Source: Acidobacteriota bacterium
GTDB taxonomy: Bacteria > Acidobacteriota > Terriglobia > Terriglobales > Acidobacteriaceae
Direction: 5' to 3'
Length of the DNA: 36,271 nt
Assembly: GCA_003225455.1 (NCBI GenBank)
Contig: QIAB01000037.1
Location: forward strand, 48,955 to 85,225
Under the pieces are notes generated by a model that saw nothing but the letters and a program-made list of their open reading frames with translations, was not told the DNA's origin and did not search any database. A program made the position numbers and the translations under genes. Every line of letters begins with the position of its first letter. The first letter of the stretch is position 1. Positions 3,746-28,473 of this stretch are shown piece by piece.

Positions 3746-4144
3746 TACGCCGTGCATGTTCGGCAGCTTGGAGGTGAGAGTCCTCTTCACATCCTGGGCG
3801 TCACCGCGAGGTGGGGTCTGAAGGAAGCGTGGAGCAAAGACGCGGGCCGATGAACAAGAACCGGATGAAGAGGCCTACGGTGCCGGACGAACTGGCAAGT
3901 GACAGCGAAGCCCACATCCATCAAGGGCACTGGTGGTAAATCTGGCGGTCGTGCGTCGAAGGCACGGCGCGGTGAAGCCGCAAAGGATGCTAACCCGAGA
4001 CGTGAAACCCACACGGGTCCCCAAACCGCGAACGCCCAGCCCGCCAATTCATCGACGGGACTAACCTATCGAACCGCCGGATGCGGACCCGCATGTCCGG
4101 TGGTGTGGCAGGGGAGAGTGGGCGACCGCTCCCCCTATGCCGAT
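3745..4144 (+). mobile_element. ORF-less group II intron (IIC-like)
   Basis: About 400 bases with no credible gene but with group II intron signatures. Domain I-like blocks include GTGAGAGTCC (3774-3783), GGTCTGAAGGAAGCG (near 3815-3829) and CCGATGAACAAGAACC (near 3848-3863). Domain V is at 4071-4107: ACCGCCGGATGC pairs with GCATGTCCGGTGGT, leaving a two-base bulge on the 3' strand, the hallmark of domain V. Domain VI is the following GGGGAG/CTCCCC hairpin with an unpaired A in CTATGCCGAT, ending near 4144. No reverse transcriptase lies in domain IV, so movement would need a maturase in trans. The 5' end is uncertain (GTACG at 3745 or GTGCA at 3752). The position right after a terminator hairpin supports class IIC. 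Confidence 0.78.
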
Positions 4145-7766: not shown

Positions 7767-8474
7767 TTACACGTCGAAAACCTGATACACGCGCGATGGA
7801 TTCTGGGACTGCAGCAGTGTAATTGCGACGTTGTGTACGGGCACGCCACCCGTGGTTTTTCCTTGCAACTTTCCATGATGCGCATGGCCGTGAATCACCA
7901 GGTCCGCCCCATGTCGATCTACGACTTCAGCGAGGCGAGACGTTCCCAAGAATGCATAGATTTCCGGGGACTCGCCTTCCACCGTGCCCATGATCGGGGA
8001 ATAATGCAATACCACGACTCGCTTTTGCGTGCGCAACTGAGCCATAGCGCGTTCGAGTTTCAGGGCCTCGTCAATTGAGGCACGAACAAAGGCTTTAACC
8101 TCAGGCTCGCCAAATGCGGTGAGAACGCCGCGTCCAAATCCACCGACAAACCCCTTTGTCCCGGCAAAGCCCACGCCATCGCGTTCGTAGGCGCTGCCGT
8201 CGAGAACTTTGATTCCTTCCGCCGTCATCATGTGCATCAGCTCGGCTTCGCGGCCGCTTTCGTAATCGTGATTTCCCAGCACTACCACAGTAGGAACCCG
8301 CAGACGAACCAACGCGTTCAGGAGCGGCTCCATTTCCGCAGGCTGGCCGAAGTTGGTGAGGTCGCCGGCAAGCACGAGCAGGTCAGCGTCATCGCGCACT
8401 TGATTGAGTTGATCGCGCAGCGCGCTGTAGCGCTGAGCGGTAAAGTGCAGATCGGCGGTGGCAGCGATTCTCAT
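7767..8474 (-). CDS. Calcineurin-like metallophosphoesterase
   Basis: A 235-residue protein with all metal-binding motifs of the calcineurin-like phosphoesterases: DLH at residues 8-10, GDLT 37-40, GNHD 67-70, a His in VVLHYSP near 157, and GHAH 196-199. It should bind two metal ions and hydrolyse phosphoester bonds; the substrate is unknown. The compact size and lack of signal peptide indicate a cytoplasmic enzyme of the YkuE/Icc-like single-domain type. It starts 40 bases downstream of the nucleotidyltransferase on the same strand, so the two may share a transcript. Confidence 0.92.
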   Translation of the reverse strand: MRIAATADLHFTAQRYSALRDQLNQVRDDADLLVLAGDLTNFGQPAEMEPLLNALVRLRVPTVVVLGNHDYESGREAELMHMMTAEGIKVLDGSAYERDGVGFAGTKGFVGGFGRGVLTAFGEPEVKAFVRASIDEALKLERAMAQLRTQKRVVVLHYSPIMGTVEGESPEIYAFLGTSRLAEVVDRHGADLVIHGHAHHGKLQGKTTGGVPVHNVAITLLQSQNPSRVYQVFDV

Positions 8475-8514: not shown

Positions 8515-9351
8515 TCAAAGATTAACCGCGCATCGCTTCGGGAGGCTTATGAGTTTTGGCTCTCTTTTTTGCCGATATTCTTCAAGCAAATTCTCAAGGC
8601 CCCACTCTTTCAAATCAATAGCAAACATAAACTCATCAACGAGGCTGCCCCGAAATCGCGCATTGGGATTCGGATTCTCAATTTCGTTCGCCACACGCGA
8701 AAGCAGCTGTCTCCAGAGCGGACGCGGAACGTAGTCACTGTGAGCCGGGTAAACGAAATGGAATAGGATCAGCGCCCAAAGCAGAATCTCCCAGTGTTCG
8801 CCGGCATGCCGAAGCACGCGATCCCAGTCCAGCCTGCCCTGAGTACCGTAAATGATGTGGGCAATGTCAGCTCCGTCGAACCTCTCGCGGCGGGTGACAA
8901 AAAGCTTCGAAGCCAGAAGTTCCTCCGGCGCAAGCACGCGGGTGGGAACATCCACAATCATGGCCGGATGAGCCAGTTCGATCCATGACAGATCGACCGT
9001 GATTACGGCATTGCTCATGCCGGTAATCAAATCCACGAAGAATCCGTCGCGGTGCGCCTTAGCCAACCAAACCGGGTCAAGAATTTCACAGTGGAACCCG
9101 TGTTCTTGTAGGTAACCAAGCGCCAGCGCCACATCTTCGGAACGAAGAAAAATGTCGAGATCTTTTGTGTAACGGCAAATTCCGGTATGTTTCTGCAGCG
9201 CGAATGCCCCGGCTACGGCGTAGGGAACCTGCCGGTCTTCGAGCACACCCAGCACCTCGCGGTAAAGGCCCTCCTGCTTGCGAGGAATCTTCACGGGGAT
9301 CGATGACGTGTGTCCGCGGCTTTCTGGCGATTTGTCGCGACGGTCCGGCAT
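8515..9351 (-). CDS. Nucleotidyltransferase-fold protein
   Basis: A 278-residue protein with a minimal nucleotidyltransferase core. The sequence VPYAVAGAFALQKHTG (residues 42-57) is a variant of the GG/GS helix motif. It is followed by YTKDLDIFLR (61-70), supplying the DxD metal ligands; a third acidic residue may be in VITVDLSW. The downstream region (LAPEELLASKLFVTRRERFDGADIAHII) is typical of the AbiEii/NTase-like proteins that adenylylate or nucleotidylate targets. No antitoxin-like partner is adjacent, so a toxin role is not indicated. The neighbour is a metallophosphoesterase, so a transfer/hydrolysis pair is conceivable but speculative. The first ~20 residues are polar and may be disordered. 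Confidence 0.8.
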   Translation of the reverse strand: MPDRRDKSPESRGHTSSIPVKIPRKQEGLYREVLGVLEDRQVPYAVAGAFALQKHTGICRYTKDLDIFLRSEDVALALGYLQEHGFHCEILDPVWLAKAHRDGFFVDLITGMSNAVITVDLSWIELAHPAMIVDVPTRVLAPEELLASKLFVTRRERFDGADIAHIIYGTQGRLDWDRVLRHAGEHWEILLWALILFHFVYPAHSDYVPRPLWRQLLSRVANEIENPNPNARFRGSLVDEFMFAIDLKEWGLENLLEEYRQKREPKLISLPKRCAVNL

Positions 9352-9592: not shown

Positions 9593-10405
9593 ATGTCCTC
9601 TACCGCAGATCCCCTGGCAGGCAAGCCAGCTCTTGCTCCTATCGGCGCTGAAAGCGATGGACGTTCTCTTGCCCAACGCATCGCGGAGCTTGGCGAATGG
9701 TTTCACAATCTCGACCTTCATGGAGTTCACACGGCTCCCCGTCACTTTCTTGGCGACTTTCCCAACATCAAGTGGCAACCGATCGGCAAAGCAATCCCGC
9801 AGGATCTCACTGGCGCCACTGTGCTCGATATCGGCTGCAATGGCGGGTTCTACTCTATCCAGATGAAGCAGCGCGGAGCGCGCCGAGTACTTGGCATCGA
9901 CGTAGATGATCGCTACTTAAATCAGGCGCGCTTTGCGGCAAATACTCTGGGCCTAGACATTGAATTTAAAAAGTGTTCTGTATATTCCGCGGACGAAATT
10001 TCCGGTCAATTTGATTATGTGCTGTTGATGGGCGTTTTCTATCACCTGCGCTATCCCCTCTTTGCACTCGACAAAGTGATTAAGAAAGTTGCTGGCAAGC
10101 TGGTGTTCCAGACCATGATTCGCGGCTCGGAAGAGGCGCGAATATGGGAAGACGACTATCCATTCTGGAACAAGGAAATCTTCCGAGACCCGGACTTCCC
10201 GGCGGTGTATTTCATCGAGAAGAGCTACTCCCACGATTACACAAACTGGTGGATTCCGAACCGCGCAGCAGTTGAGGCGATGCTCCGCAGTTCGGGGCTG
10301 GAGATTTTAGAGCGCCCGGAATCAGAGACGTGGATCTGCGAACCGCGCCGGAGCACACAACGCGGACGCTACATTTTGGATTTGGAACTAGAAGGGACGT
10401 TATGA
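9593..10405 (+). CDS. CmoB-like SAM-dependent methyltransferase of the glycosyltransferase cluster
   Basis: From the ATG at 9593 the protein has 270 residues. It resembles tRNA U34 carboxymethyltransferase CmoB: WFHNLDLHGVHTAP (36-49), the SAM-binding loop VLDIGCNGGFYS (77-88), GIDVDD (101-106) and GVFYHLRYPL (147-156), plus a conserved NWWIPN segment. The context is not tRNA modification: it heads a run of sugar-nucleotide SDRs, a B12-type radical SAM enzyme and glycosyltransferases. I recall an NCBI family of exactly this kind (TIGR04290, Rta_06860-like methyltransferases), but have not checked it. The likely role is methylation or carboxymethylation of a sugar or small intermediate. The frame is open back to 9404, but that extra part is non-conserved, so the later ATG is preferred. 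Confidence 0.85.
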   Translation: MSSTADPLAGKPALAPIGAESDGRSLAQRIAELGEWFHNLDLHGVHTAPRHFLGDFPNIKWQPIGKAIPQDLTGATVLDIGCNGGFYSIQMKQRGARRVLGIDVDDRYLNQARFAANTLGLDIEFKKCSVYSADEISGQFDYVLLMGVFYHLRYPLFALDKVIKKVAGKLVFQTMIRGSEEARIWEDDYPFWNKEIFRDPDFPAVYFIEKSYSHDYTNWWIPNRAAVEAMLRSSGLEILERPESETWICEPRRSTQRGRYILDLELEGTL

Positions 10406-10501
10406 GACTTCTGCCTGCGAGTGGCGTGCCGCTTCGCGCGTGAGTGCTCACTGGAAGCGGAGTAGGCCGCCGCAAAAATCTAAATTGTTTCCAGGGGAGC
10501 C

Positions 10502-11452
10502 ATGGTCGAAGCGGTAATGTTGTGGAACGAGCCAAACAACCTATCGCATTGGGACTTCCATATTGATCCTGAATGGAGGCTCTTTGCGGAGATGACGATT
10601 GCTGCAGCGCGCGTGATTCGAGAGATCAATCCAGATCTCACGATCGCGCTGGGCGGCATGTCTCCTGTAGACGCGAACTTTGTGCGCTTGCTGGCCGGGC
10701 ACGGTGTATTGGACCACATCGACGTGGTTGCGATTCATGGCTTTCCTCTCGATTGGAACCACTGGAGCATCCATGAGTGGCCAGGAAAGGTCGAAGAGAT
10801 TCGCCGCGTGAGCAATAGGCCAGTGTGGGTTTCGGAAGCTGGAGCCTCGTCGTTCGGCGCAGAAGAAGTGCAGGCGTTCGGTGTGAAACGAACGGCGGAG
10901 TTGCTCCTGCCCATTGTCGATCGGGTGCACTGGTACAGCCTCTTTGACCTGCCTTCTAACTGGACCGCCACTACCCGCCACAAAGAAGCAGAAGGCAGCG
11001 CTTACTACCGGCATTACTACATGGGATTGGTGCGGGAAGACGGCAGTCCAAAAGCGGCGAGCTCGTGTTTTCCGCAAGGCTTGGGAATCTGTCAGTGGTT
11101 TCATTTCGAGGACCCACGGCTAAGTTCCGCAGTGGAGTGGTTGCGCAAACTGAAAGTCCGCTATCTGCGAACCGGCCTGAGCTGGGCGGACTCATACCGT
11201 CCTGGCGCAGAAGCCTGGTTCGACCAGCAAATGCAAGCGCTGGAGGAATTTGATATCACCATGACTCTCTGCTTTACGCCCGAGCATCTAGGCCAAGCGC
11301 CGCATTACACCAGCCCTCCCAAAAATCCTGAGGATTTTGCGAATTTTGCGGCGTGGGCGGTTCAAAAGTATGCCCTGGTCAGCCGAAAAAGTCTCAGCCT
11401 GAGCGGCTTGGACGGAAGGAATCGGTTCCAACGGCAACCATGGAAGCGATAA
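10502..11452 (+). CDS. Clan-A glycoside-hydrolase-like protein (beta-xylosidase-like)
   Basis: A 316-residue protein that starts abruptly with MVEAVMLWNEPNN, i.e. at the acid/base Glu (Glu10) strand of a GH39/GH5-type TIM barrel. The putative nucleophile is Glu112 in VWVSEAG, with HWYSLFDLP near 143-151. From about residue 194 a second segment (LGICQWFHFEDPRLSSAVEWLRKL, LRTGLSWAD, LCFTPEHLG) looks like the early strands of the same kind of barrel, so the order appears permuted relative to ordinary GH39 enzymes. No signal peptide, so cytoplasmic. AGGGGAG immediately precedes the ATG. After Tyr290 the frame gives a non-family-like tail; the +2 frame gives a Pro/Lys-rich tail ending at 11460, so a one-base indel near 11372-11376 is possible. 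The role in the cluster is unknown: trimming, transfer or binding of the glycan. Confidence 0.72.
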   Translation: MVEAVMLWNEPNNLSHWDFHIDPEWRLFAEMTIAAARVIREINPDLTIALGGMSPVDANFVRLLAGHGVLDHIDVVAIHGFPLDWNHWSIHEWPGKVEEIRRVSNRPVWVSEAGASSFGAEEVQAFGVKRTAELLLPIVDRVHWYSLFDLPSNWTATTRHKEAEGSAYYRHYYMGLVREDGSPKAASSCFPQGLGICQWFHFEDPRLSSAVEWLRKLKVRYLRTGLSWADSYRPGAEAWFDQQMQALEEFDITMTLCFTPEHLGQAPHYTSPPKNPEDFANFAAWAVQKYALVSRKSLSLSGLDGRNRFQRQPWKR

Positions 11453-11674
11453 GAAATTGAATTTCGCTATCGCCCAAGGCTGCGACGGGCAGTACGCTGG
11501 CGAACAGAGGGGTTACAGCGTAAGTGTTTACTCGAGAAACATTAGTTTCTAGGCAGCGCGGTTTGAGGTACTTTCATCCAACTTTCCGCCCAGAGAACGT
11601 CACCGGGTGGTGCTTCCCTATATTTCCGCATCCGTATCGACGTTCTTGTAGCCCAGGGCAGGGAGCCAAGGTTA

Positions 11675-12796
11675 GTGGGCAAGAAAGTCCTGATTACCGG
11701 CGGCGCCGGATTTGTAGGATCACACACCGCGGACGCTCTAATTCGAAAAGGCCACACCGTTCGCATCTACGACAATCTGACTGAGCAGGTGCACGCAGCC
11801 GGAGCCGCGCCCGCTTACCTGCCGCCGGAAGCGGAATTCGTGCGCGGAGACATGCGTGACCTGGACACCTTATCTAAGGCTGTGCGCGGCGTCGACGTGA
11901 TCTATCACTTAGCAGCAGCAATTGGCGTTGGGCAATCGATGTACGAGATCGCGTATTACACCGCTGTAAACAATCAGGGCACAGCCAATCTGCTGCAGGC
12001 TCTGCTCGATTCACATGTACAGCAGGAGAAAATTATTGTTGCCTCCTCGATGTCCATCTACGGTGAGGGCAAGTACCTCTGTCAGGAGTGTGGTCCCGTA
12101 GCGCCGCCTCCGCGGCCAGCAGCACAGCTAAGAGAAAAGCGGTGGGAAACGGCGTGTCCGCATTGCGGAGAAATCGCGACTCCGGTTCCGACCGATGAAA
12201 GCAAACCGTCGCAATCGACGTCCATTTATGCGCTCTCAAAAAAAGATCAAGAGGAAATGCTGCTGCTTTTTGGCCGTACCTACGGAATTCCAGTCGTTGC
12301 ATTGCGGTACTTCAATATTTACGGCGCTCGGCAATCGCTCTCGAACCCCTACACCGGAGTGGCGGCAATCTTCGCCTCGCGGCTAATGAACAAAAATTCG
12401 CCCATTGTGTTTGAAGACGGCAGGCAGATGCGCGACTTCGTCTGCGTGCACGACGTCGTACAGGCGAACCTCTTGGCCATGGAAAATCCGGCAGCAGACG
12501 GGCGCGCACTGAATGTAGGCTCGGGACACCCTGTCACGATCGCTGAAATTGCCAGCGAACTGAGCGCAGCGCTCGGGCGGCCGCCGCTGATGGAGATTAC
12601 TGGCAAATATCGCGCTGGCGACATCCGGCATTGTTTTGGAGACATTTCCCTAATTGTGGATTTGCTGGGCTACCGGCCGCGAGTGCGGCTCAATCAGGGA
12701 ATACAGGAGCTGGTCGATTGGCTGAAGTCACAGGAAACGAGCGATCGAGTGGAGGACGCGATGGAGCGGCTGAACGTGTACGGTTTGGTGGCATGA
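11675..12796 (+). CDS. NAD-dependent epimerase/dehydratase with CxxC/CxxC insertion
   Basis: A 373-residue extended SDR acting on a nucleotide sugar (family knowledge). It has the Rossmann motif GGAGFVGSH (9-17), IYDNL (31-35), YHLAAAIGVG (77-86) and the catalytic pair in YALSK (Tyr185, Lys189), then RYFNIYGARQ and GSGHPVTI. Unusual: between the Ser-containing strand ASSMSIYG and the catalytic Tyr is an insertion with C136-x2-C139 and C161-x2-C164, which could bind zinc. The start is a GTG at 11675, with GGGAGCC upstream. Its TGA overlaps the next ATG (ATGA at 12793-12796), so translation is coupled. The exact sugar reaction (4-epimerase, 4,6-dehydratase or other) cannot be told from sequence alone. 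Confidence 0.9.
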   Translation: MGKKVLITGGAGFVGSHTADALIRKGHTVRIYDNLTEQVHAAGAAPAYLPPEAEFVRGDMRDLDTLSKAVRGVDVIYHLAAAIGVGQSMYEIAYYTAVNNQGTANLLQALLDSHVQQEKIIVASSMSIYGEGKYLCQECGPVAPPPRPAAQLREKRWETACPHCGEIATPVPTDESKPSQSTSIYALSKKDQEEMLLLFGRTYGIPVVALRYFNIYGARQSLSNPYTGVAAIFASRLMNKNSPIVFEDGRQMRDFVCVHDVVQANLLAMENPAADGRALNVGSGHPVTIAEIASELSAALGRPPLMEITGKYRAGDIRHCFGDISLIVDLLGYRPRVRLNQGIQELVDWLKSQETSDRVEDAMERLNVYGLVA

Positions 12797-13941
12797 CGTT
12801 GAGTCCAGATCCGCATTTTTCAGGTAAATGGGGTTCCGTGAACAAAGTAGTGCCATTTCGTTCGGTAGTGATTTTTGGAGGCGCCGGATTCGTCGGCTCG
12901 AATTGGGCGTATCGGCTGCTAAAAACTACTGAGGCCAAAGTGCACATCTTCGACAATTTGTCGCGTCGTGGAGTGCAGCACAATGTCAGTTGGTTGCGGC
13001 ATGCAGCTGGAGATTCTGAGCGCCTGAAGATCACGGTAGGAGACGTTCGCGATGCAACGCTGGTACAACGTGCGGTGCAGCCGGCAACCGAAGTGTACAA
13101 CTTCGCTGCGCAAGTCGCGGTGACTGCCTCCATTGATGATCCCCGCGAAGACTTTGAGACGAACCTAGGGGGAGCGCTGAACATTCTTGAAGCGGCACGG
13201 AAGAGCGGGCACAAACCCTTTCTCCTGTTTACATCAACGAATAAAGTTTACGGCCATCTCATCTCCCAAAGCCTGACCGTCACGCCGAAGCGCTACACGT
13301 GCACCGATCAGCAAGGAGTGAACGAATCGCAGCCTCTTGATTTCTACTCGCCGTACGGCTGTTCCAAAGGCGCCGCTGATCAGTACGTTCACGATTACAG
13401 CAGGATCTTCGGATTGCCCACGGTCGTCTTTCGCATGTCATGCATTGCTGGTCCCCGGCAGTTTGGCACGGAAGATCAGGGCTGGGTCGCGCACTTTCTT
13501 TACTCGGCGCTTCAGGACCGGCCGGTAACGATCTACGGCGATGGCCGCCAGGTTCGAGATGTGCTGTATGTAGAGGATCTCGTGCATGCGTTCGAATTGG
13601 TGCGAGCACGCGTGGAGACCACCGGAGGCGAGATCTACAACGTGGGTGGTGGGCTGGAGAATTCGACGTCGCTGTTGGAGCTCATCGCTGAAATTGAACA
13701 CGTAACCGGCAAAAAGCTGCGATACGAAACGAATTTGCCTCGACCGGGAGATCAACCCTTCTATGTAACTGATTTTTCCAAACTGCGCCGTCACACCGGC
13801 TGGGAACCGAAGGTGAGTCTGCCTCGCATTCTGGCACACATGTACGCATGGTGGAGGCAGAATCGCGATCTGTTTCCTGCCGCTGTGCCCCCTCAGGTGC
13901 CGATCCCGGCTCTTCAGCGCGCGCCGGAGGTGGCATCGTGA
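12793..13941 (+). CDS. NAD-dependent epimerase, CDP-paratose 2-epimerase-like
   Basis: A 382-residue extended SDR from the ATG at 12793. Motifs are FGGAGFVGSN for NAD binding, IFDNLSRRGVQHNVSWLR, YNFAAQVAVTASIDDP, FTSTNKVYG and the catalytic YGCSK. The NLSRRG..HN..WL signature and the TNKVYG motif are those of CDP-paratose/CDP-tyvelose 2-epimerase-like enzymes, so a 2-epimerase acting on a deoxy or ordinary nucleotide sugar is the best guess. The frame is open upstream to 12631, but that part is only the antisense-like extension inside the preceding gene. The ATGA overlap with the upstream gene and GTGA overlap with the downstream gene place it in the middle of a coupled operon. Confidence 0.9.
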   Translation: MTLSPDPHFSGKWGSVNKVVPFRSVVIFGGAGFVGSNWAYRLLKTTEAKVHIFDNLSRRGVQHNVSWLRHAAGDSERLKITVGDVRDATLVQRAVQPATEVYNFAAQVAVTASIDDPREDFETNLGGALNILEAARKSGHKPFLLFTSTNKVYGHLISQSLTVTPKRYTCTDQQGVNESQPLDFYSPYGCSKGAADQYVHDYSRIFGLPTVVFRMSCIAGPRQFGTEDQGWVAHFLYSALQDRPVTIYGDGRQVRDVLYVEDLVHAFELVRARVETTGGEIYNVGGGLENSTSLLELIAEIEHVTGKKLRYETNLPRPGDQPFYVTDFSKLRRHTGWEPKVSLPRILAHMYAWWRQNRDLFPAAVPPQVPIPALQRAPEVAS

Positions 13942-15224
13942 AGTTTGCCTTGGTTAATCCGGCGTGGAGCTTCCAAGGTTCGACGTATTTCGGTTGCCAG
14001 GAGCCGCATTATCCGCTTGAATTATTATTTGCGTTCGACAAGATTAAAGAAGGCGGACATGATCCGATCCTGATTGATGCCCAGGTGGAAAAGCTGACGG
14101 CGGCGCAGGTCAAGCGACGCTTGGATGAGTTTCATCCCAATTTTCTGGTAATTCCTACTGCGCCATCATATTTATTCTGGCGCTGCCCGCCTCCCGAGTT
14201 GCGGGTTCCGCGCAAATGGTTCGCGGAACTTGGAGACGGAGCAGTCAAAGTAGCGATCGGGCCGCATCCATCAGCAACCCCATCCGCGACATTGCGCAAA
14301 TTGAACTGCGACGTCGCCATGCGTGGCGAGCCCGACGAGACCTTGGTTCAACTCGCATCGCGCCCATGGACCGAAATCGATGGCTGTTGCTGGAAAGACG
14401 AGAACGGCGTACACCTGAGTCCGTCGTTGGCCGTTACCGATATGAGAGGTCTCGGCACGCTTAGCTTCGATGATTACAACGTCGAAGCGCATCAGCATCG
14501 GCATCACGTTTTTAGCGGCTGCGGGCGCGGCGCTGAACTGGAGTTTGCCCGCGGATGCCCGTGGAACTGCACCTTCTGCAATAAGACTTTGTTTCGCAAT
14601 AAATTTCGTGAGCGCGATGTGGACGCCGTTCTTGCAGAGGTCGATAACCTCATGGCGCGCGGAGTGAGCTACATCTACTGGATTGATGAGATCTTCGGCG
14701 TCGGAAAGAATGTGCGCCGACTGCTTGAAGAGCTACGTCATCGGCCTATTTCCATCGGACTGCAAACCCGAATCGATCTCTGGGATGAAGAAGCCCTCGA
14801 TCTCCTCGGCCAGGCGCATTGCATCTCCATGGAGTGCGGGATTGAATCGATCACCGATGAGGGCCGAGACGAACTAAACAAGAACTGCCGCATGTCAACT
14901 GAGAGGCTCTCCCGGTTGCTGATCTATGCAAAGGAGCGCATCCCTTGGGTGCAGGCGAACCTCATTCTTACCGACCATGACAATCGCGATGAGATTTGCA
15001 CTTGGCAGAAGAATCTGAAGAAATATGGCGTCTGGGTGAGCGAACCGGTGCCGATGTTCCCTTATCCAGGCACGCCACTGTACACGCAGATGTTCGGCCC
15101 ACCGGACGACCAAGCTTGGGAACGCGCTCACCATTATTACACTGGCATGTTCCGCGAAAAAGATTACAGCGATATTCAGGAGCCGCATCCGGCGCGAATT
15201 GAGGATCTTGAATGCACGTGTTAA
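13938..15224 (+). CDS. B12-binding-domain radical SAM enzyme
   Basis: A 428-residue protein started by GTG at 13938, overlapping the previous stop as GTGA and preceded by GGAGG. The N-terminal ~140 residues have the layout of a cobalamin-binding Rossmann domain (VKFALVNPAW, YPLELLFAFDKIKEGGHDPILIDAQ, GPHPSATP), but I see no DxHxxG motif, so base-off His ligation to cobalamin is doubtful. The radical SAM domain has the [4Fe-4S] cysteines C207-x3-C211-x2-C214 in ARGCPWNCTFCNK and later ISMECGIES. Family knowledge: such enzymes methylate unactivated carbons or phosphorus, or rearrange carbon skeletons. Here the substrate is probably a sugar, lipid or other intermediate of the surrounding pathway. 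I recall a matching NCBI family (TIGR04295), unchecked. Confidence 0.88.
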   Translation: MKFALVNPAWSFQGSTYFGCQEPHYPLELLFAFDKIKEGGHDPILIDAQVEKLTAAQVKRRLDEFHPNFLVIPTAPSYLFWRCPPPELRVPRKWFAELGDGAVKVAIGPHPSATPSATLRKLNCDVAMRGEPDETLVQLASRPWTEIDGCCWKDENGVHLSPSLAVTDMRGLGTLSFDDYNVEAHQHRHHVFSGCGRGAELEFARGCPWNCTFCNKTLFRNKFRERDVDAVLAEVDNLMARGVSYIYWIDEIFGVGKNVRRLLEELRHRPISIGLQTRIDLWDEEALDLLGQAHCISMECGIESITDEGRDELNKNCRMSTERLSRLLIYAKERIPWVQANLILTDHDNRDEICTWQKNLKKYGVWVSEPVPMFPYPGTPLYTQMFGPPDDQAWERAHHYYTGMFREKDYSDIQEPHPARIEDLECTC

Positions 15225-16312
15225 TGACCGCGGATACTGTGGGTGGTGTCTGGACCTACACCCGGGAATTGGTGAGCGGATTAATAGAGCAGGGCATTCG
15301 CGTGAGTTTGGTGAGCTTAGGCAAACTGCCGTCGCCGAACCAGACAACATGGATGGATGCTCTGCCGGAACTGGACTACCGTCCTACGGACTACCGGCTG
15401 GAGTGGATGCAAGATTCGGAGCGGGATGTTGAAGAATCCAGCAATTACCTGGAATCGGTAATTCGTGAGGTTCGCCCTGACCTCTTGCATTTGAATCAAT
15501 ATTGCTACGGCACGGTTTCGCCAGAAATCCCGCGGATTGTCGTTGCCCACAGCGACGTTGTGAGCTGGTGGGTGGCGGTTCACGGGCATGAACCCAAAGA
15601 AACTCCGTGGATTCGCTGGTATCGCGATACGGTGACCAGCGGATTAGGATGCGCCGATGTGGTCATCGCACCTTCGCAATGGATGCTGGATGTTCTCCGG
15701 ACTTACTACACGCGCCCTAGCTTCGGAGTAGTGGTTCACAATGGCTGCAATCCAGCGCGGTTCGATCCTGATCTGCCGAAAAAAGATTTCGTCCTCTCAG
15801 TTGGCCGGCTCTGGGACAAAGCGAAGCAGGTCTCGCTCTTGTTGCAACGCGATCAGGCAATTCCAGTGTGCATCGCAGGATCTGGAGAAGAGCCCGGAAG
15901 GGAGGCCACTTGCGAGGATGGACCAAAGAGCAAGAATCCGAAATTGAAAGGGTCGCAATCTTCCGAGCAGTTGCGCTGCATGTTTGCCGAAGCTTCCGTC
16001 TATGCCGCGACTTCTTGTTATGAGCCATTTGGCCTTGCTGCTTTGGAGGCCGCCTTCTCACGATGTGCTCTGGTAGCGAACGACATTCCTACCTTTCACG
16101 AGCTGTGGGGGGATTCGGCCTGCTACTTCCGGCACAACGATCCTGACGACCTTGCCGCGACTATCACCGCTTTGAGCCGCGATGAGGAAATGCGCAGTAC
16201 ATACGCGGAGGCCGCTTTTGAAACGGCGCGAGCGAAGGTCACTGCAGAAAAGATGATTGCCCAGTACACGGCCCTGTATCAAACCGTCACATCTGCCGAG
16301 GCAGTGGCATGA
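15212..16312 (+). CDS. GT4-type glycosyltransferase
   Basis: A 366-residue GT-B glycosyltransferase. The N-terminal acceptor domain starts MHVLMTADTVGGVWTYTREL (Gly-rich GGVWTY loop). The C-terminal donor domain has LSVGRLWDKAKQ and the E-x7-E motif EPFGLAALE, typical of retaining GT4 enzymes that transfer sugars from nucleotide donors. Unusual: the region after VCIAGSGEE carries a polar, Lys-rich insertion (about residues 228-248) where the fold normally has a compact strand-loop. It overlaps the radical SAM gene by 13 bases and the next gene by ATGA, so it is part of the same coupled operon. The donor and acceptor sugars are unknown. Confidence 0.9.
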   Translation: MHVLMTADTVGGVWTYTRELVSGLIEQGIRVSLVSLGKLPSPNQTTWMDALPELDYRPTDYRLEWMQDSERDVEESSNYLESVIREVRPDLLHLNQYCYGTVSPEIPRIVVAHSDVVSWWVAVHGHEPKETPWIRWYRDTVTSGLGCADVVIAPSQWMLDVLRTYYTRPSFGVVVHNGCNPARFDPDLPKKDFVLSVGRLWDKAKQVSLLLQRDQAIPVCIAGSGEEPGREATCEDGPKSKNPKLKGSQSSEQLRCMFAEASVYAATSCYEPFGLAALEAAFSRCALVANDIPTFHELWGDSACYFRHNDPDDLAATITALSRDEEMRSTYAEAAFETARAKVTAEKMIAQYTALYQTVTSAEAVA

Positions 16313-17427
16313 TGGGACGGCTCAGGATTTGCATCTTTGCGCACTCCTGGATTTCAGACTGGAATCACGGGAACGCTCATTTCCTGCGTGGTCTGGCGTA
16401 CGAGCTGAGCCGGCTCGGCCACGACGTCCTGTGCTACGAAGAGACTGACTCCTGGTCCATGGTCAATTTACTGCAAGAAGGAGTTGATCGGGCTGCGGAA
16501 GCGTTTCGTAATTTTCGCAAAGCGTTCCCGACTCTCGATGTGCGCTTCTATAGAAATGACGCCAGCCTGCTGCCTTTCCTCGAAGAGCAATTGAGAGAGG
16601 CAGATGTGGTGATAGTGCATGAGTGGAACGACCCGAAGGTCGCCGACGCAATTCTCTCTTTGAAATCAAGGCTGGGTTTTCGGGCGCTGTTTCACGATAC
16701 GCATCATCGCGCCTACACCAATCCCAAAGAGGTTCTGCGAATGCCGCTCGCTAGGTTTGACGGCGTGCTGGCGTTTGGAGAGGCAATTCGGCGCATCTAC
16801 GCTGAGGGTTTTGGTGTGGAAAGAGTTTGGACATTTCACGAGGGTGCCGACACAGCACACTTCCGGCCCTTGGCGCACGAAAAAGATACAGATGTGATCT
16901 GGGTGGGGAACTGGGGCGACGAGGAGCGGACCGGCGAGCTGGAAGAATTTCTCATAATGCCCACTGGCCGGCTTCGCGATCGCAAAATTGCAGTCCATGG
17001 AGTCCGCTATCCGAGACAGGCGCTAGACCGACTCGCGGAAGCAAGAATTGAATTCCGAGGTTACTTGCCAAATCTAGAAGCGCCGCACGCCTATGCGCGC
17101 AGTGCTCTCACTGTGCACGTGCCGCGCAGGTTTTATGCCAACGGCCTGTCTGGCGTGCCGACCATACGGGTATTCGAGGCGCTAGCCTGCGGCGTTCCCC
17201 TATTGTGCTCTCCTTGGGTCGACACGGAAGGGTTGTTCCGCGCGGGAGAAGATTACATCTGTGTCAAAGATGGGCGGGCTATGGAGGTCGAAATCAGAAA
17301 TCTGCTGGCCGACGAAGCTGCCCGCCAGCAGATGGCAAACAACGCGGCGGAAACCATCGGGCGGCGCCACACTTGCGCGCATCGCGCGGCTCAGTTGTTG
17401 GAAATCTGCGAGGAGCTGGGGAAATGA
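16309..17427 (+). CDS. CgeB-like glycosyltransferase (first of three)
   Basis: A 372-residue GT-B-like protein beginning with an ATGA overlap at 16309. It has ICIFAHSWISDWNHGNAHFLRGLAYELSRLGHDV at the N-terminus (split motif, with NHGNAHF as the acceptor-side loop) and a C-terminal donor-side segment, GVPTIRVFEALACGVPLLCSPW, followed by GEDYI and a conserved acidic/Lys loop. This is the 'glycosyltransferase family 1, CgeB-like' pattern. CgeB proteins are implicated in spore or surface glycosylation in other bacteria, but the activity of this one is unknown. It has no signal peptide. It overlaps the next CgeB-like gene by ATGA (17424-17427). Confidence 0.82.
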   Translation: MMGRLRICIFAHSWISDWNHGNAHFLRGLAYELSRLGHDVLCYEETDSWSMVNLLQEGVDRAAEAFRNFRKAFPTLDVRFYRNDASLLPFLEEQLREADVVIVHEWNDPKVADAILSLKSRLGFRALFHDTHHRAYTNPKEVLRMPLARFDGVLAFGEAIRRIYAEGFGVERVWTFHEGADTAHFRPLAHEKDTDVIWVGNWGDEERTGELEEFLIMPTGRLRDRKIAVHGVRYPRQALDRLAEARIEFRGYLPNLEAPHAYARSALTVHVPRRFYANGLSGVPTIRVFEALACGVPLLCSPWVDTEGLFRAGEDYICVKDGRAMEVEIRNLLADEAARQQMANNAAETIGRRHTCAHRAAQLLEICEELGK

Positions 17428-18542
17428 AGCTTTTTGTCTTCGGTTCCAGCCTGACCTCTTCTTACTGGAATGGCGCGGCCACTTATTATCGAGGAATCTA
17501 CAAGAACCTACATGCGCTCGGATATCACATCACGTTTGCTGAGCCGGACATCTACGGCCGGCAACAGAAGCGGGACGCTGGCCAAATCGACTATGCGACC
17601 GTTCTTGTTTATCAGACCCCGAAAGATCTAGATCGCGTGTTCGCCGAAGCAGTCGAAGCAGATTTGATCATCAAGCATAGCGGCGTCGGCGCCGACGACG
17701 AACGGTTGGAGTCGGAAGTCCTGCAATGCCGCTCCAAGAGCTGCAAAGCCGCGTTCTGGGATGTAGACGCTCCTGCGAGCTTGGCGAGGGTCGAAGAGAA
17801 CGCATCAGATCCATTTCGCGACCTCATTCCGCGGTACGATTTTATTTTCACCTATGGCGGTGGCCCGCCGGTAATAGCGCACTATCTGCGATTGGGCGCT
17901 AAAAATTGCATTCCGATTTATAACGCCCTCGATCCGGATACGCACCATCCCGTATCGCCTGATCCAACCGTGAGTTGCGACCTTGTATTCATTGGGCATC
18001 GCTTGCCGGATCGTGAGCGGCGAGTCGAGGAATTCTTCTTCGCGGCTGCTGAGCTCGCGCCAGAGCTCTCGTTTCTTCTGGGCGGAGAAGGATGGGGCAG
18101 CCGGCGGTTGCCCAAAAATGTACGCTGGCTCGGCCACGTGTGCAGTTCTGACCACAACCGCATTAATTGCTCTGCCCGCATGGTGTTGAATATCAACCGA
18201 CAGTCTATGGCTGGGGTGGGGTTCTCCCCTCCAACGCGTGTATTTGAAGCTGCGGGGGCGGGAGCTTGCGTCATCACTGATGAGTGGGCTGGAATCGATC
18301 AGTTTTTTGAGCCAGGAAGGGAAATTCTGGTGGCCTCCTCGGCGGAAAAGATTGTCTCGTTCTTGCGTGAAATTCCTTGGCAGCATGCCAGCGAGGTTGG
18401 ACAAGCCATGCGGCATCGAGCGCTTCGTGACCACACTTACTCTTTACGAGCGCAGCAGGTGCACGAAGTCTTGCGAGCAGGAAAGGAACTAGTCGCGAGT
18501 CCCACAGAGAGTTCTAAATCTGTTGTCCACTCCTTTGCCTAA
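17424..18542 (+). CDS. CgeB-like glycosyltransferase (second of three)
   Basis: A 372-residue protein from the ATG at 17424 (AGGAGCTGGGG ribosome binding site). It shows FVFGSSLTSSYWNGAATYYRG at the start, AAFWDVDAP in the middle (about residue 110) and, in the donor domain, FSPPTRVFEAAGAGACVITDEW followed by FFEPGREILVA. It shares with its downstream neighbour a G.S.TSS..NG.AT.YR start and a FEAAG.GA..I.D.W end, so the two are paralogues from duplication, while the first CgeB-like gene is more distant. The frame is open upstream to 17205 but that portion lies inside the previous gene. Donor and acceptor are unknown. Confidence 0.85.
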   Translation: MKLFVFGSSLTSSYWNGAATYYRGIYKNLHALGYHITFAEPDIYGRQQKRDAGQIDYATVLVYQTPKDLDRVFAEAVEADLIIKHSGVGADDERLESEVLQCRSKSCKAAFWDVDAPASLARVEENASDPFRDLIPRYDFIFTYGGGPPVIAHYLRLGAKNCIPIYNALDPDTHHPVSPDPTVSCDLVFIGHRLPDRERRVEEFFFAAAELAPELSFLLGGEGWGSRRLPKNVRWLGHVCSSDHNRINCSARMVLNINRQSMAGVGFSPPTRVFEAAGAGACVITDEWAGIDQFFEPGREILVASSAEKIVSFLREIPWQHASEVGQAMRHRALRDHTYSLRAQQVHEVLRAGKELVASPTESSKSVVHSFA

Positions 18543-18551
18543 GGAGCGAAA

Positions 18552-19658
18552 TTGAAGATCACTATCCTCGGATTGTCGATTACTTCATCGTGGGGCAACG
18601 GACACGCCACCACGTATCGCGCACTTGCCCGTGCACTACACGCCCGCGGACATCGCATAATTTTCTTCGAGCGCGACTTGGAGTGGTATGCCTCTAACCG
18701 TGACATGCCGGAGCCGCCCTTCTGCTCGGTACGCATTTATGAGAGATGGGATGAGGTCGTCCCAAAATTGCGAAGAGAACTAGCGTCGAGTGATGTTGCG
18801 ATTGTCGGATCTTACTTTCCGGACGCGCTTGCCGCGATCGACGAAGTCTTTGATTCGCGCGCCGGGGTCAAAGCTTTTTACGACATCGATACCCCGATTA
18901 CGGTAGCAGCCCTGGAGGCGGGCGAAGCAGAGTACTTGAAGCCAGAGCAAGTCGCAGGTTTTGACGTTTATTTCAGCTTCACCGGCGGACCCATGCTGCG
19001 AAAGCTAGAGCGCAAATTCGGTGCGCAAAAAGCTGTTCCGCTGTACTGCTCCTTTGATCCGGGAAACAACCAATTCTCCATGCCGCAGGGACGCTTCGCG
19101 AGCGATCTGAGTTACATGGGGACGTACGCCGCAGATCGTCAACCACAACTTGAGGAATTGTTCTGCAAGCCGGCGCGAACATTGCAGGATAAGAGGTTTC
19201 TACTTGCCGGTCCGCAATACCCAAGTGAAATCGAATGGCCAGCTAACGTGCGGCAGATCATTCATCTCGAGCCACGGCTACATGCGCCGTTTTACTGCTC
19301 TTCGCGGCTAACATTGAATCTCACCCGTCAAGAAATGGTTTCAGCCGGCTACTCTCCCTCGGTGCGTTTGTTTGAAGCCGCCGGCTGCGGCGCCACAATT
19401 GTGTCGGACCGCTGGCCTGGTTTGGAGACATTCTTCACTCCCGGGGAAGAGATTCTGCTTCCAGACTCGGGCCAGGACGTGGTCGGTTATCTCACAGGAA
19501 TGTATGAGACCGAAATGAAAGCCATCGGCGGGCGCGCCCAAGAACGCGTGCTCCTTGAGCACAGCTCGGAGCGTAGAGCGATAGAGTTCGAAGAATATGT
19601 CCGCGGGGCTGGAGCTTCAGCGGTGAACACAGCGGCTGTTGCCGAAACGTCGCTGTAG
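18552..19658 (+). CDS. CgeB-like glycosyltransferase (third of three)
   Basis: A 368-residue protein with a TTG start at 18552, preceded by AAGGAGCG. It begins ITILGLSITSSWGNGHATTYRALARAL, has AFYDIDTP near residue 113 (aligned with AFWDVDAP of the neighbour), FSFTGGPML, and the donor-side YSPSVRLFEAAGCGATIVSDRWPG with FFTPGEEILLP. It is the closest paralogue of the preceding gene. The TTG start and nine-base gap make it the only member of the 3' half of the operon not joined by an overlap, so it may be translated less. It ends the run; a hairpin lies at 19674-19699. Confidence 0.85.
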   Translation: MKITILGLSITSSWGNGHATTYRALARALHARGHRIIFFERDLEWYASNRDMPEPPFCSVRIYERWDEVVPKLRRELASSDVAIVGSYFPDALAAIDEVFDSRAGVKAFYDIDTPITVAALEAGEAEYLKPEQVAGFDVYFSFTGGPMLRKLERKFGAQKAVPLYCSFDPGNNQFSMPQGRFASDLSYMGTYAADRQPQLEELFCKPARTLQDKRFLLAGPQYPSEIEWPANVRQIIHLEPRLHAPFYCSSRLTLNLTRQEMVSAGYSPSVRLFEAAGCGATIVSDRWPGLETFFTPGEEILLPDSGQDVVGYLTGMYETEMKAIGGRAQERVLLEHSSERRAIEFEEYVRGAGASAVNTAAVAETSL

Positions 19659-20627: not shown

Positions 20628-21329
20628 TTAGACCTGCTTAGCCAGCGTGGCGACGATGACCAGCCGCTCCGGTGCCGGTCCTATGTAGTAGACGGGATAG
20701 CAGGTGATTAGCGTCAGGCGAGCTTCTGAGCTGCTATCAAGAACGGAGAGGTCGCTGGGTTGAACCACACGTTTACCGGTTACGACGTAATGAAATTGCC
20801 TGCCCCGACGCTCGACGTATATATCATCGCCTGTCTTAAGCTCGGAAATGTGACGGAAAAACGTGTCTCGGTGCCCCGCAATCACCGAGTTGCCGACGTC
20901 ACCGGGAATAGCTGAGTATTGCAGATGTCCGGGTCCTAGCGTCAATGCGCGGTGAGACACGCCTTCTGTGATTACAGCATCTAATTTAATTTTCGGGATC
21001 TGGATGCGTGTTAAGGCGCTTCCCTCCGCCGACACTGTGAGATTTCCGGGATTCGCAGTGCTTTGCCATTGATTCAGGAGTGCTCGCTGCTCGTGGTACA
21101 TCCACGTGTAGGTACCTACGACATACGCCGACAGCAACACCCCCAAGGTGATCAACAAGGCGCCAAAATATTGCTTCACCGCGCGAGAGCGATCGGCAGA
21201 GGTATTTGCGGGCAGCAGATGGGCCCACCCCACGTTTGCCCATCTGTGAAATTGGGCAAACCAGATTTTGATCTGCTCATTACTCAGTTTGGCTTGCAAA
21301 CGCGAAAAGTGAGCCGAAGCCATAGCCAT
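20628..21329 (-). CDS. Class D-like sortase
   Basis: A 233-residue membrane-anchored transpeptidase. The N-terminal ~50 residues are cytoplasmic; one transmembrane helix lies at about 53-75 (FGALLITLGVLLSAYVVGTYTW). The sortase domain follows: IQIPKIKLDAVITEG, the catalytic His153 in IAGHRDTFF, Cys210 in LTLITCYPV and Arg222 in APERLV. The TLITC and PGHRDT-like context fits class D/E sortases. It should cut a sorting signal between Thr and Ala/Gly and transfer the protein to an amine acceptor outside the inner membrane. The gene directly upstream encodes a protein ending in LPQTA, an apparent substrate (117-base gap). Confidence 0.92.
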   Translation of the reverse strand: MAMASAHFSRLQAKLSNEQIKIWFAQFHRWANVGWAHLLPANTSADRSRAVKQYFGALLITLGVLLSAYVVGTYTWMYHEQRALLNQWQSTANPGNLTVSAEGSALTRIQIPKIKLDAVITEGVSHRALTLGPGHLQYSAIPGDVGNSVIAGHRDTFFRHISELKTGDDIYVERRGRQFHYVVTGKRVVQPSDLSVLDSSSEARLTLITCYPVYYIGPAPERLVIVATLAKQV

Positions 21330-27434: not shown

Positions 27435-28436
27435 TCAGGTTTGATCCTGTCCCGCAGAGGTAGTTCCTCCGCGTGGCTTTTGGTTGCCGCAGTGTGCGAC
27501 ACCATCTTCGATCTGGGTCCCTTCCTCATAGTCGTTCCAAGTGGCAATCAGCATAAAGGGCATGGGAGCCCCGCTGTCGTTTTTCTGGAAAATGCGGAGC
27601 GTGTCTTCGAACGTTTTTCCGCAGCGCCGATCCATACGACGGTTCAGACTCCATGAAGCTTTCGTATCATCAAATCCGGGCCAGACGGTTCCGACAATAA
27701 TCTTGTCCGGAAATTTGTTTCGCATCCGGCGATAGAACGTTTCGAGATACTCCTCGCCCCACTCGCTGCCGTCGGAACTCCAGCCTTTCGGACCAGGATG
27801 AACCCATGCATAGTATCCGTCGAAATTTGATGCATACTTTTCCGGCGGCTCGTCCTTGTAGATCAAAATCGGCGGCATTTCCCACTTGTTCACCTGCTGG
27901 CGAATCTGGTTCCAGTCTGTATGGCCGCGCTTAGGGAAGATGAAGATCACCGGCCGGCCCTGGTATGTCAGATATGCCGCGCGCGCGGGCGCGCTTGGGC
28001 CGATGTAAGCGCGATAGGCCTTGTCGAAGGCATCCAGTGCATCTTCCGTCGCGTGTCCGTTATCTTCCTCGGTCTCGTCATACATCAGCGCGACGTGAAA
28101 ATGGCCTTCGCTTGCAACCTGCTGCAAAAGTGCATAGCTGCGGTCGAGAAACGGATTCCGGTTGCCGTACCAGTCCACGGCAAAGGCATAAATGCCAAGA
28201 GCTTTCGCCTCCTGAATTTGTCGCCGCAGCACGTTCGGATCTTGAGTCGAATATCCGACCTGAATGTGCTGAGAATCGCCAAACCAGGGTTGATAATCAG
28301 CCACAACTTTCGGCGAACGGTCCACGGCGCGCACAGTTTGATCGATCGAGCGGCGGACGTTATTGCGGGAACAACCACTCGCGAGCAGGAACACGACCGC
28401 CGCGAGCACAACAAGTGTAATCGACGGCCCTTTCAT
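27435..28436 (-). CDS. GH99-like lipoprotein
   Basis: A 333-residue protein from the ATG at 28436, with a lipoprotein signal: MKGPSITLVVLAAVVFLLASGC (lipobox LASG-Cys22). An upstream ATG at 28472 would add twelve residues before it. The mature part reads VVADYQPWFGDSQHIQVGYSTQDPNVLRRQIQEAKALGIYAFAVDWYGN, then VALMYDETEEDNGH, VIFIFPKRG, FDGYYAWVHPG and PFMLIATWNDYEEGTQIE. This is the TIM-barrel pattern of GH99/GH71-like endo-mannosidase or related glycanases, with acidic residues in YDETEED and WNDYEEGT as catalytic candidates. It would act on a glycan at the outer face of a membrane. It lies 37 bases downstream of the next exported protein, so it probably shares that transcript. Confidence 0.82.
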   Translation of the reverse strand: MKGPSITLVVLAAVVFLLASGCSRNNVRRSIDQTVRAVDRSPKVVADYQPWFGDSQHIQVGYSTQDPNVLRRQIQEAKALGIYAFAVDWYGNRNPFLDRSYALLQQVASEGHFHVALMYDETEEDNGHATEDALDAFDKAYRAYIGPSAPARAAYLTYQGRPVIFIFPKRGHTDWNQIRQQVNKWEMPPILIYKDEPPEKYASNFDGYYAWVHPGPKGWSSDGSEWGEEYLETFYRRMRNKFPDKIIVGTVWPGFDDTKASWSLNRRMDRRCGKTFEDTLRIFQKNDSGAPMPFMLIATWNDYEEGTQIEDGVAHCGNQKPRGGTTSAGQDQT

Positions 28437-28473
28437 GAACGCTCTTAAGGTGTGCAGCGGCGCGGAGGACAAC

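Follow-up and report, generated by a model that had tools for sequence, protein, structure and literature searches.

A nine-gene cluster from an Acidobacteriota bacterium whose B12-type radical SAM enzyme never occurs together with a dehydrogenase pair in the related loci compared

Organization of the locus

The window analysed here is a stretch of 36,271 nucleotides from an Acidobacteriota bacterium (GCA_003225455.1, contig QIAB01000037.1, positions 48,955 to 85,225), and its closest relatives likewise place it in that phylum. It contains a cluster of nine open reading frames, g1 to g9, which lie on the plus strand at 9593-19658 and include a radical S-adenosylmethionine (SAM) protein, g5 (Table 1). 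Neighbouring frames overlap by ATGA at 12793, by GTGA at 13938, by 13 bases at 15212-15224, and by ATGA at 16309 and 17424, and only 10 bases separate the g8 stop from the g9 start. The g1/g2 and g2/g3 junctions are looser (96 and 222 bases), so strict coupling is limited to g3-g9. With that restriction, the analysis agrees with an earlier reading of this DNA, made from the sequence alone, which had described a nine-gene cluster on one strand joined by these overlaps. Pattern scans for terminators and promoters found no excess over shuffled sequences at the cluster.

Table 1. Genes of the cluster and two neighbouring genes (window coordinates; SDR, short-chain dehydrogenase/reductase; NDP, nucleoside diphosphate)
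Feature	Position	Strand	Description
g1	9593..10405	+	TIGR04290 methyltransferase, SAM fold, CmoB-like
g2	10502..11452	+	Stand-alone circularly permuted GH-A-like TIM barrel (basis: fold and permutation; activity predicted)
g3	11675..12796	+	Extended SDR, NDP-sugar epimerase/dehydratase type, CxxC...CxxC insertion
g4	12793..13941	+	Extended SDR, CDP-tyvelose 2-epimerase type
g5	13938..15224	+	TIGR04295 radical SAM protein, N-terminal B12-binding-like Rossmann domain
g6	15212..16312	+	GT4 glycosyltransferase; PF13439 and PF00534
g7	16309..17427	+	CgeB-like glycosyltransferase, PF13524; syntenic in most loci
g8	17424..18542	+	CgeB-like glycosyltransferase, PF13524
g9	18552..19658	+	CgeB-like glycosyltransferase, PF13524; syntenic
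Metallophosphoesterase	7767..8474	-	Neighbour of the cluster, possibly of the same island
Nucleotidyltransferase-fold protein (DUF2204)	8515..9351	-	Partner of the metallophosphoesterase

Conservation of the cluster across phyla

Relatives of g5 were sought in 84,980 species genomes; of the 254 obtained, the best 80 were used. The cluster recurs in Acidobacteriota, Myxococcota, Cyanobacteria, Thermodesulfobacteriota and Pseudomonadota. The order g3-g4-g5-g6-g7-g8-g9 is kept in most loci from Acidobacteriota, Myxococcota (Sorangium, Minicystis), Cyanobacteria, Desulfarculales and Alphaproteobacteria, and in the loci compared g1 and g2 usually lie near this block. Distant phyla share this gene set in the same order, so the clustering is above chance. 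Additional evidence came from co-occurrence: of 297 Acidobacteriota genomes, five have a TIGR04295 protein above the cut-off, and g2 and g8, searched independently, were found in the same six, namely those five and a further acidobacterium, G286. The best single marker of the cluster, in the two variants described below, is g8. Eight genomes have g4-g5 separated from the rest, with g7-g9 homologues on another contig; loci with g4-g5 only were considered as a minimal system, and this was rejected because the same genomes hold the glycosyltransferases of the cluster elsewhere. In four such acidobacterial loci (L058, L060, L061 and L045), g4-g5 adjoin a gene that, judged by eye, resembles UDP-glucose 6-dehydrogenase.

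These data make it almost certain that the nine genes serve one pathway. The sequence-only reading had proposed this, with the proviso that homologues should not prove rarely to occur together; they nearly always co-occur. It had also named TIGR04290 and TIGR04295 correctly, as g1 and g5 both score above the respective cut-offs, and NCBI labels homologues of g1 and g5 with these families in Azospirillum, Tistrella and Bradyrhizobium. Both families, TIGR04295 (B12_rSAM_oligo) and TIGR04290 (meth_Rta_06860), are hypothetical equivalogs, and neither predicts the radical SAM-free variant or the inositol genes described below. Within the open-licence literature, searches on the family names, the enzyme combination and the Sinorhizobium meliloti locus numbers (the strain 1021 tags being guessed) yielded no paper on the cluster, in line with the earlier statement that no described product was known.

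The gene set extends beyond the nine genes. Annotated alphaproteobacterial plasmids add an inositol-3-phosphate synthase, a histidine phosphatase, a nucleotidyltransferase, a UDP-glucuronate decarboxylase and a fourth CgeB-type glycosyltransferase. The genome studied here has two further genes of this system, for a fourth CgeB-type glycosyltransferase and a nucleotidyltransferase, beyond the window at about 13-15 kb upstream of g1 (L136:13614-18366). Next to them come genes for a PIG-L de-N-acetylase and an acetyltransferase of the GNAT type; these last two suggested a mycothiol-like route, which was rejected because both are rare at other loci. A conserved protein of about 580 residues with no Pfam or NCBIfam match was seen in about 20 loci, often beside the inositol-3-phosphate synthase gene (L127:5379-7127; L136:4743-6311).

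The radical SAM enzyme and its replacement by two dehydrogenases

Against TIGR04295, g5 scores 627.5 bits (cut-off 400), with residues 2-425 of 428 covered. The cysteines of its CxxxCxxC motif (C207, C211 and C214) are invariant in 45 aligned sequences. An AlphaFold 2 model (mean predicted local distance difference test score, pLDDT, 91) matches AprD4 (Z 27.0), OxsB (26.8), TsrM (26.7) and MgmA (26.0) over nearly its full length; in each case residues 1-409 or more are matched, which includes the predicted N-terminal B12-binding-type domain. AprD4 is also the best sequence match (E 5e-6, 18% identity), and AprD4 carries a B12-type domain but is not known to use B12. Because the fold scores tie, neither the chemistry of g5 nor its use of B12 follows from them. 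The description of g5 as a B12-type radical SAM enzyme in the sequence-only reading is upheld for the family and the domain, while use of cobalamin is unproven. A DxHxxG motif is present in only 9 of 91 radical SAM frames, and no relative of g5 was found in the viral contigs searched.

Evidence on the role of g5 came from clusters that lack it. In G286, the space between g4 and g6 is occupied, on the same strand, by a zinc-type dehydrogenase of the medium-chain dehydrogenase/reductase (MDR) superfamily and a Gfo/Idh/MocA oxidoreductase. The same pair accompanies radical SAM-free clusters in Rhizobium etli CFN42 (p42b), S. meliloti (pSymB) and Xanthomonas sacchari, and in Paracoccus, Roseomonas, Sphingobium and Ensifer. 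On S. meliloti pSymB (NC_003078.1) the stretch from g3 to g1 occupies 242403-250964, and the MDR and Gfo/Idh genes come immediately after it. Among plasmid records, g8 was found in 146, the MDR gene and the Gfo/Idh gene in 136 each, and the radical SAM gene in 9; the records with the radical SAM gene and those with the MDR gene share no genus, and one Roseomonas record is left over. The loci compared comprise 91 with the radical SAM gene, 8 with the pair, none with both, and 1 degraded remnant. This remnant, in plasmid pRSpC104e of Rhizobium sp. C104 (L134), has a partial Gfo/Idh gene, neither a radical SAM nor an MDR gene, and lies amid Hsp20 and nutrient-deprivation genes. An even draw of 398 Pseudomonadota genomes yielded 14 carriers, ten with the radical SAM gene (the tenth being L113), four with the pair and none with both. 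No MDR orthologue was found in 25 radical SAM genomes, and no radical SAM orthologue in 5 pair genomes.

On a tree of g8, the label "radical SAM" or "pair" takes five changes, of which at least two are forced by well-supported branches; the swap therefore occurred more than once. Mutual exclusion of this kind makes it very probable that the radical SAM enzyme and the two dehydrogenases are alternatives for a single slot in the pathway; that both lead to an identical product is inferred. The recurrent swap also hints at what the radical SAM enzyme does. The sequence-only reading had missed both the radical SAM-free variant and the inositol genes.

Families of the remaining enzymes

The SDRs and glycosyltransferases of the sequence-only reading were confirmed by family searches, which place g3 and g4 among the extended SDRs; the CxxC...CxxC insertion in g3 was read straight from its sequence. 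The identity of g4, which the earlier reading had recognised as a nucleotide-sugar SDR and no further, can be narrowed. It scores 272 bits against the CDP-tyvelose 2-epimerase chains 1orr (StTyvE) and 9rl0 (TaTyvE), and the next chain scores 125. The alignment retains the catalytic triad, the TNK segment and the position of Gln205, and the motifs recur across the frames of the loci compared (TNK in 89 of 90, DQxW in 90 of 90 and YxxSK in 88 of 90). Both the asparagine of TNK, which is essential, and the glutamine of DQxW have been described for TaTyvE (PMC13098431). Having these residues, g4 is a predicted CDP-sugar 2-epimerase and would act at C-2. Two differences from the characterized enzymes are that g4 has VAV where VAM stands and that some g4 relatives are fused to a glycoside hydrolase (GH) domain.

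At 363 bits (curated cut-off 300), g1 is a member of TIGR04290. Its reading frame stays open upstream as far as 9404, and conservation begins near 9668. Carboxymethyl transfer, which the sequence-only reading had considered for g1, is not borne out: g1 scores 69 bits against CmoB families with cut-offs of 209 and 275, and its relatives in the PDB include EvdMO1 of everninomicin biosynthesis as well as CmoB.

The proposal that g2 is a permuted GH-like protein proved sound. Family model searches gave no Pfam or NCBIfam match, GH39 included. Its AlphaFold 2 model (pLDDT 88) is a TIM barrel that matches barrel structures, and E10 and E112, at the two catalytic glutamate positions, are invariant in 34 sequences, as in clan GH-A. 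Residues 3-184 align with residues 132-319 of the GH39 enzyme PslG, and g2 shares the acid/base NEP and nucleophile SEAG motifs. Unlike PslG, g2 is circularly permuted and would have its role in a biosynthetic operon. When g2 is compared with the unpermuted GH domain that Tistrella carries as a fusion to g4, its two halves align in exchanged order (E 2.5e-25 and 7.5e-12). Foldseek gave nothing more specific than generic barrels, which is what a permuted chain would be expected to give. The count was 63 permuted stand-alone g2 frames and 11 GH domains of canonical order, the latter fused at the N-terminus of g4 (e.g. L118:13956-16004, L121:13950-16004, L126:9561-11762 and L129:9841-11832). The fused domain was considered as the unpermuted form of g2, and this was rejected: both occur in L091-L093 and L101, and they are therefore paralogues. 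Through this fusion the GH is linked to the predicted CDP-sugar epimerase.

Inositol genes and genomic context

Clusters in Pseudomonadota usually carry inositol-3-phosphate synthase (ino1) with a phosphatase, and in Sphingobium ino1, MDR and Gfo/Idh genes overlap in one operon. Two unrelated Ino1 types occur at the clusters, one mycothiol-like in Alphaproteobacteria and one of 455 residues in Sorangium and G286. Of 52 Acidobacteriota tested, 50 encode Ino1, whether or not they have the cluster, which explains why acidobacterial clusters rarely carry it. For the Gfo/Idh protein of the pair, the best family is the inositol 2-dehydrogenase IolG (97.6 bits), far below its cut-off of 355; scyllo-inosose 3-dehydrogenase is among the nearest families of the MDR protein, at 77.9 bits against a cut-off of 450.

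Many clusters lie amid stress-type genes, such as those for manganese catalase, Ku/LigD, DUF892 and nutrient-deprivation proteins. Of 92 alphaproteobacterial leader regions, 4 have an EcfG-type promoter motif ahead of a cluster transcript, where 0.26 would be expected; the four represent about three lineages. This motif-based link is suggestive only, and in some alphaproteobacteria the cluster may be part of the general stress response. The description of the EcfG regulon of Sphingomonas melonis names glycosyltransferases and names no inositol or epimerase gene.

A proposed pathway and its alternatives

Gene content, synteny across phyla, co-occurrence, mutual exclusion and the adjacency of ino1 were observed directly. 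From them a pathway can be proposed, in which every reaction, the order of steps, the sugar identities and the soluble or surface location of the product are inferred. Glucose 6-phosphate would be converted to inositol by inositol-3-phosphate synthase and a phosphatase, the synthase being encoded in the cluster in most Pseudomonadota and by the host's own gene in Acidobacteriota. Activated sugars would come from the nucleotidyltransferase, g3 and g4 (the latter inverting a CDP-hexose at C-2) and, in some clusters, a UDP-xylose synthase, and would be attached by the GT4 enzyme and three or four CgeB-like glycosyltransferases. O-methylation would be due to g1, while g2 may trim or transglycosylate. 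The radical SAM enzyme would oxidise or epimerise a ring carbinol on inositol or glycosylated inositol, a step for which the zinc-dehydrogenase and the inositol-dehydrogenase-like Gfo/Idh protein could substitute. That inositol is a building block is probable. Somewhat short of an even chance is given to the full proposal, an O-methylated inositol-based oligosaccharide with a g5 step replaceable by MDR and Gfo/Idh proteins, and slightly less again to oxidation or epimerisation of a cyclitol ring carbinol by g5.

There are parallels with 2-deoxystreptamine biosynthesis, where a radical SAM enzyme or a zinc-type dehydrogenase fills the same cyclitol-oxidation slot in different producers. Streptomyces producers use NAD-dependent dehydrogenases for the oxidation. 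In another producer it is carried out by BtrN, a radical SAM 2-deoxy-scyllo-inosamine (DOIA) dehydrogenase (PMC10991966). The present cluster differs in having no amination genes, in the B12-type domain of g5, which is absent from BtrN, and in the use of two dehydrogenases in place of one enzyme.

Several observations weigh against the inositol pathway. Near-universal Ino1 in Acidobacteriota means that its presence there is no positive evidence, and in most acidobacterial loci Ino1 is not adjacent. The Gfo/Idh and MDR proteins score so far below the cut-offs for inositol enzymes that they may act on a sugar. Among the pair clusters sampled, L160 shows no more than a weak Gfo/Idh match, the pair could yield a different congener, and the EcfG-type motif is confined to few regions and lineages. 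The g5 model resembles AprD4, a dehydratase, and the B12 methylases equally. It is conceivable, if improbable, that g5 is a cobalamin-dependent C-methylase making a branched-chain sugar, with an unmethylated congener from the dehydrogenase variant. The B12-binding label of the NCBI family and the fold matches to the methylases TsrM and MgmA (Z 26-27) are consistent with this. However, dehydrogenases cannot methylate, yet they occupy the slot of g5 and never coexist with it; the scarcity of DxHxxG and the equal match to AprD4 also argue against a methylase. Less probable still is an AprD4-like role for g5 as a 1,2-diol dehydratase, by which a sugar or cyclitol would be deoxygenated and the ketone reduced by a cluster SDR. 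AprD4, the radical SAM diol dehydratase of the apramycin pathway, is the best sequence match and ties for the best structure, and its substrate paromamine is a pseudodisaccharide, but the identity is low, OxsB and TsrM match equally, and MDR and Gfo/Idh proteins are not a usual route for diol dehydration; no MDR/Gfo-Idh equivalent of AprD4 is known.

Two further alternatives concern the cluster as a whole. Its product may be a modification of a surface structure (lipopolysaccharide, glycolipid or glycoprotein) in place of a soluble oligosaccharide, with inositol as a lipid or acceptor head group. CgeB-like glycosyltransferases are known from spore surface glycosylation, the cluster encodes many glycosyltransferases, and a polysaccharide pyruvyl transferase adjoins the S. 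meliloti and Ensifer clusters. This is rather unlikely, though the likeliest of the alternatives, given that the clusters compared contain no recurrent flippase, polymerase, priming transferase or ABC exporter. Very improbable is an association that reflects a shared mobile stress island and not one pathway. Plasmid location, stress-type surroundings and shared metallophosphoesterase and nucleotidyltransferase neighbours would fit an island, but the g3-g9 order and translational coupling are kept across phyla while neighbours vary, and genomes with split clusters still keep the glycosyltransferases.

The inositol pathway, if correct in its widest form, would define a multi-phylum family of inositol-based pseudo-oligosaccharides new to chemistry, with a B12-type radical SAM enzyme acting as cyclitol carbinol dehydrogenase or epimerase where other clusters use NAD-dependent MDR and Gfo/Idh enzymes, and a product that may function in the general stress response of bacteria from soil and roots, S. 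meliloti among them; this is speculative, and the odds are against it. Two hypothetical NCBI families had already been catalogued; the radical SAM-free variant, the ino1 link, the 2-epimerase residues of g4 and the permutation of g2 are new here. Two orphan families thereby gain a testable pathway, and the exchange of a radical SAM enzyme for dehydrogenases narrows the possible chemistry of an enzyme that is otherwise unreadable. The pSymB and p42b variants put the product, which may prove to be a metabolite or surface glycan widespread among symbionts and soil bacteria, within reach of standard genetics in tractable laboratory strains.

Other features of the window

The metallophosphoesterase and DUF2204 nucleotidyltransferase genes are present as a pair in 11 loci; counterparts with 49% and 35% identity, respectively, also adjoin the cluster on R. 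etli p42b. Downstream of the cluster, on the minus strand, lie genes for a sortase-domain protein (20628-21329) and a GH99/GH71-like protein (27435-28472). Positions 3800-3970 on the plus strand give a match to the group II intron model D1-D4-3, full-length to the model, at 125.9 bits against a gathering threshold of 32.

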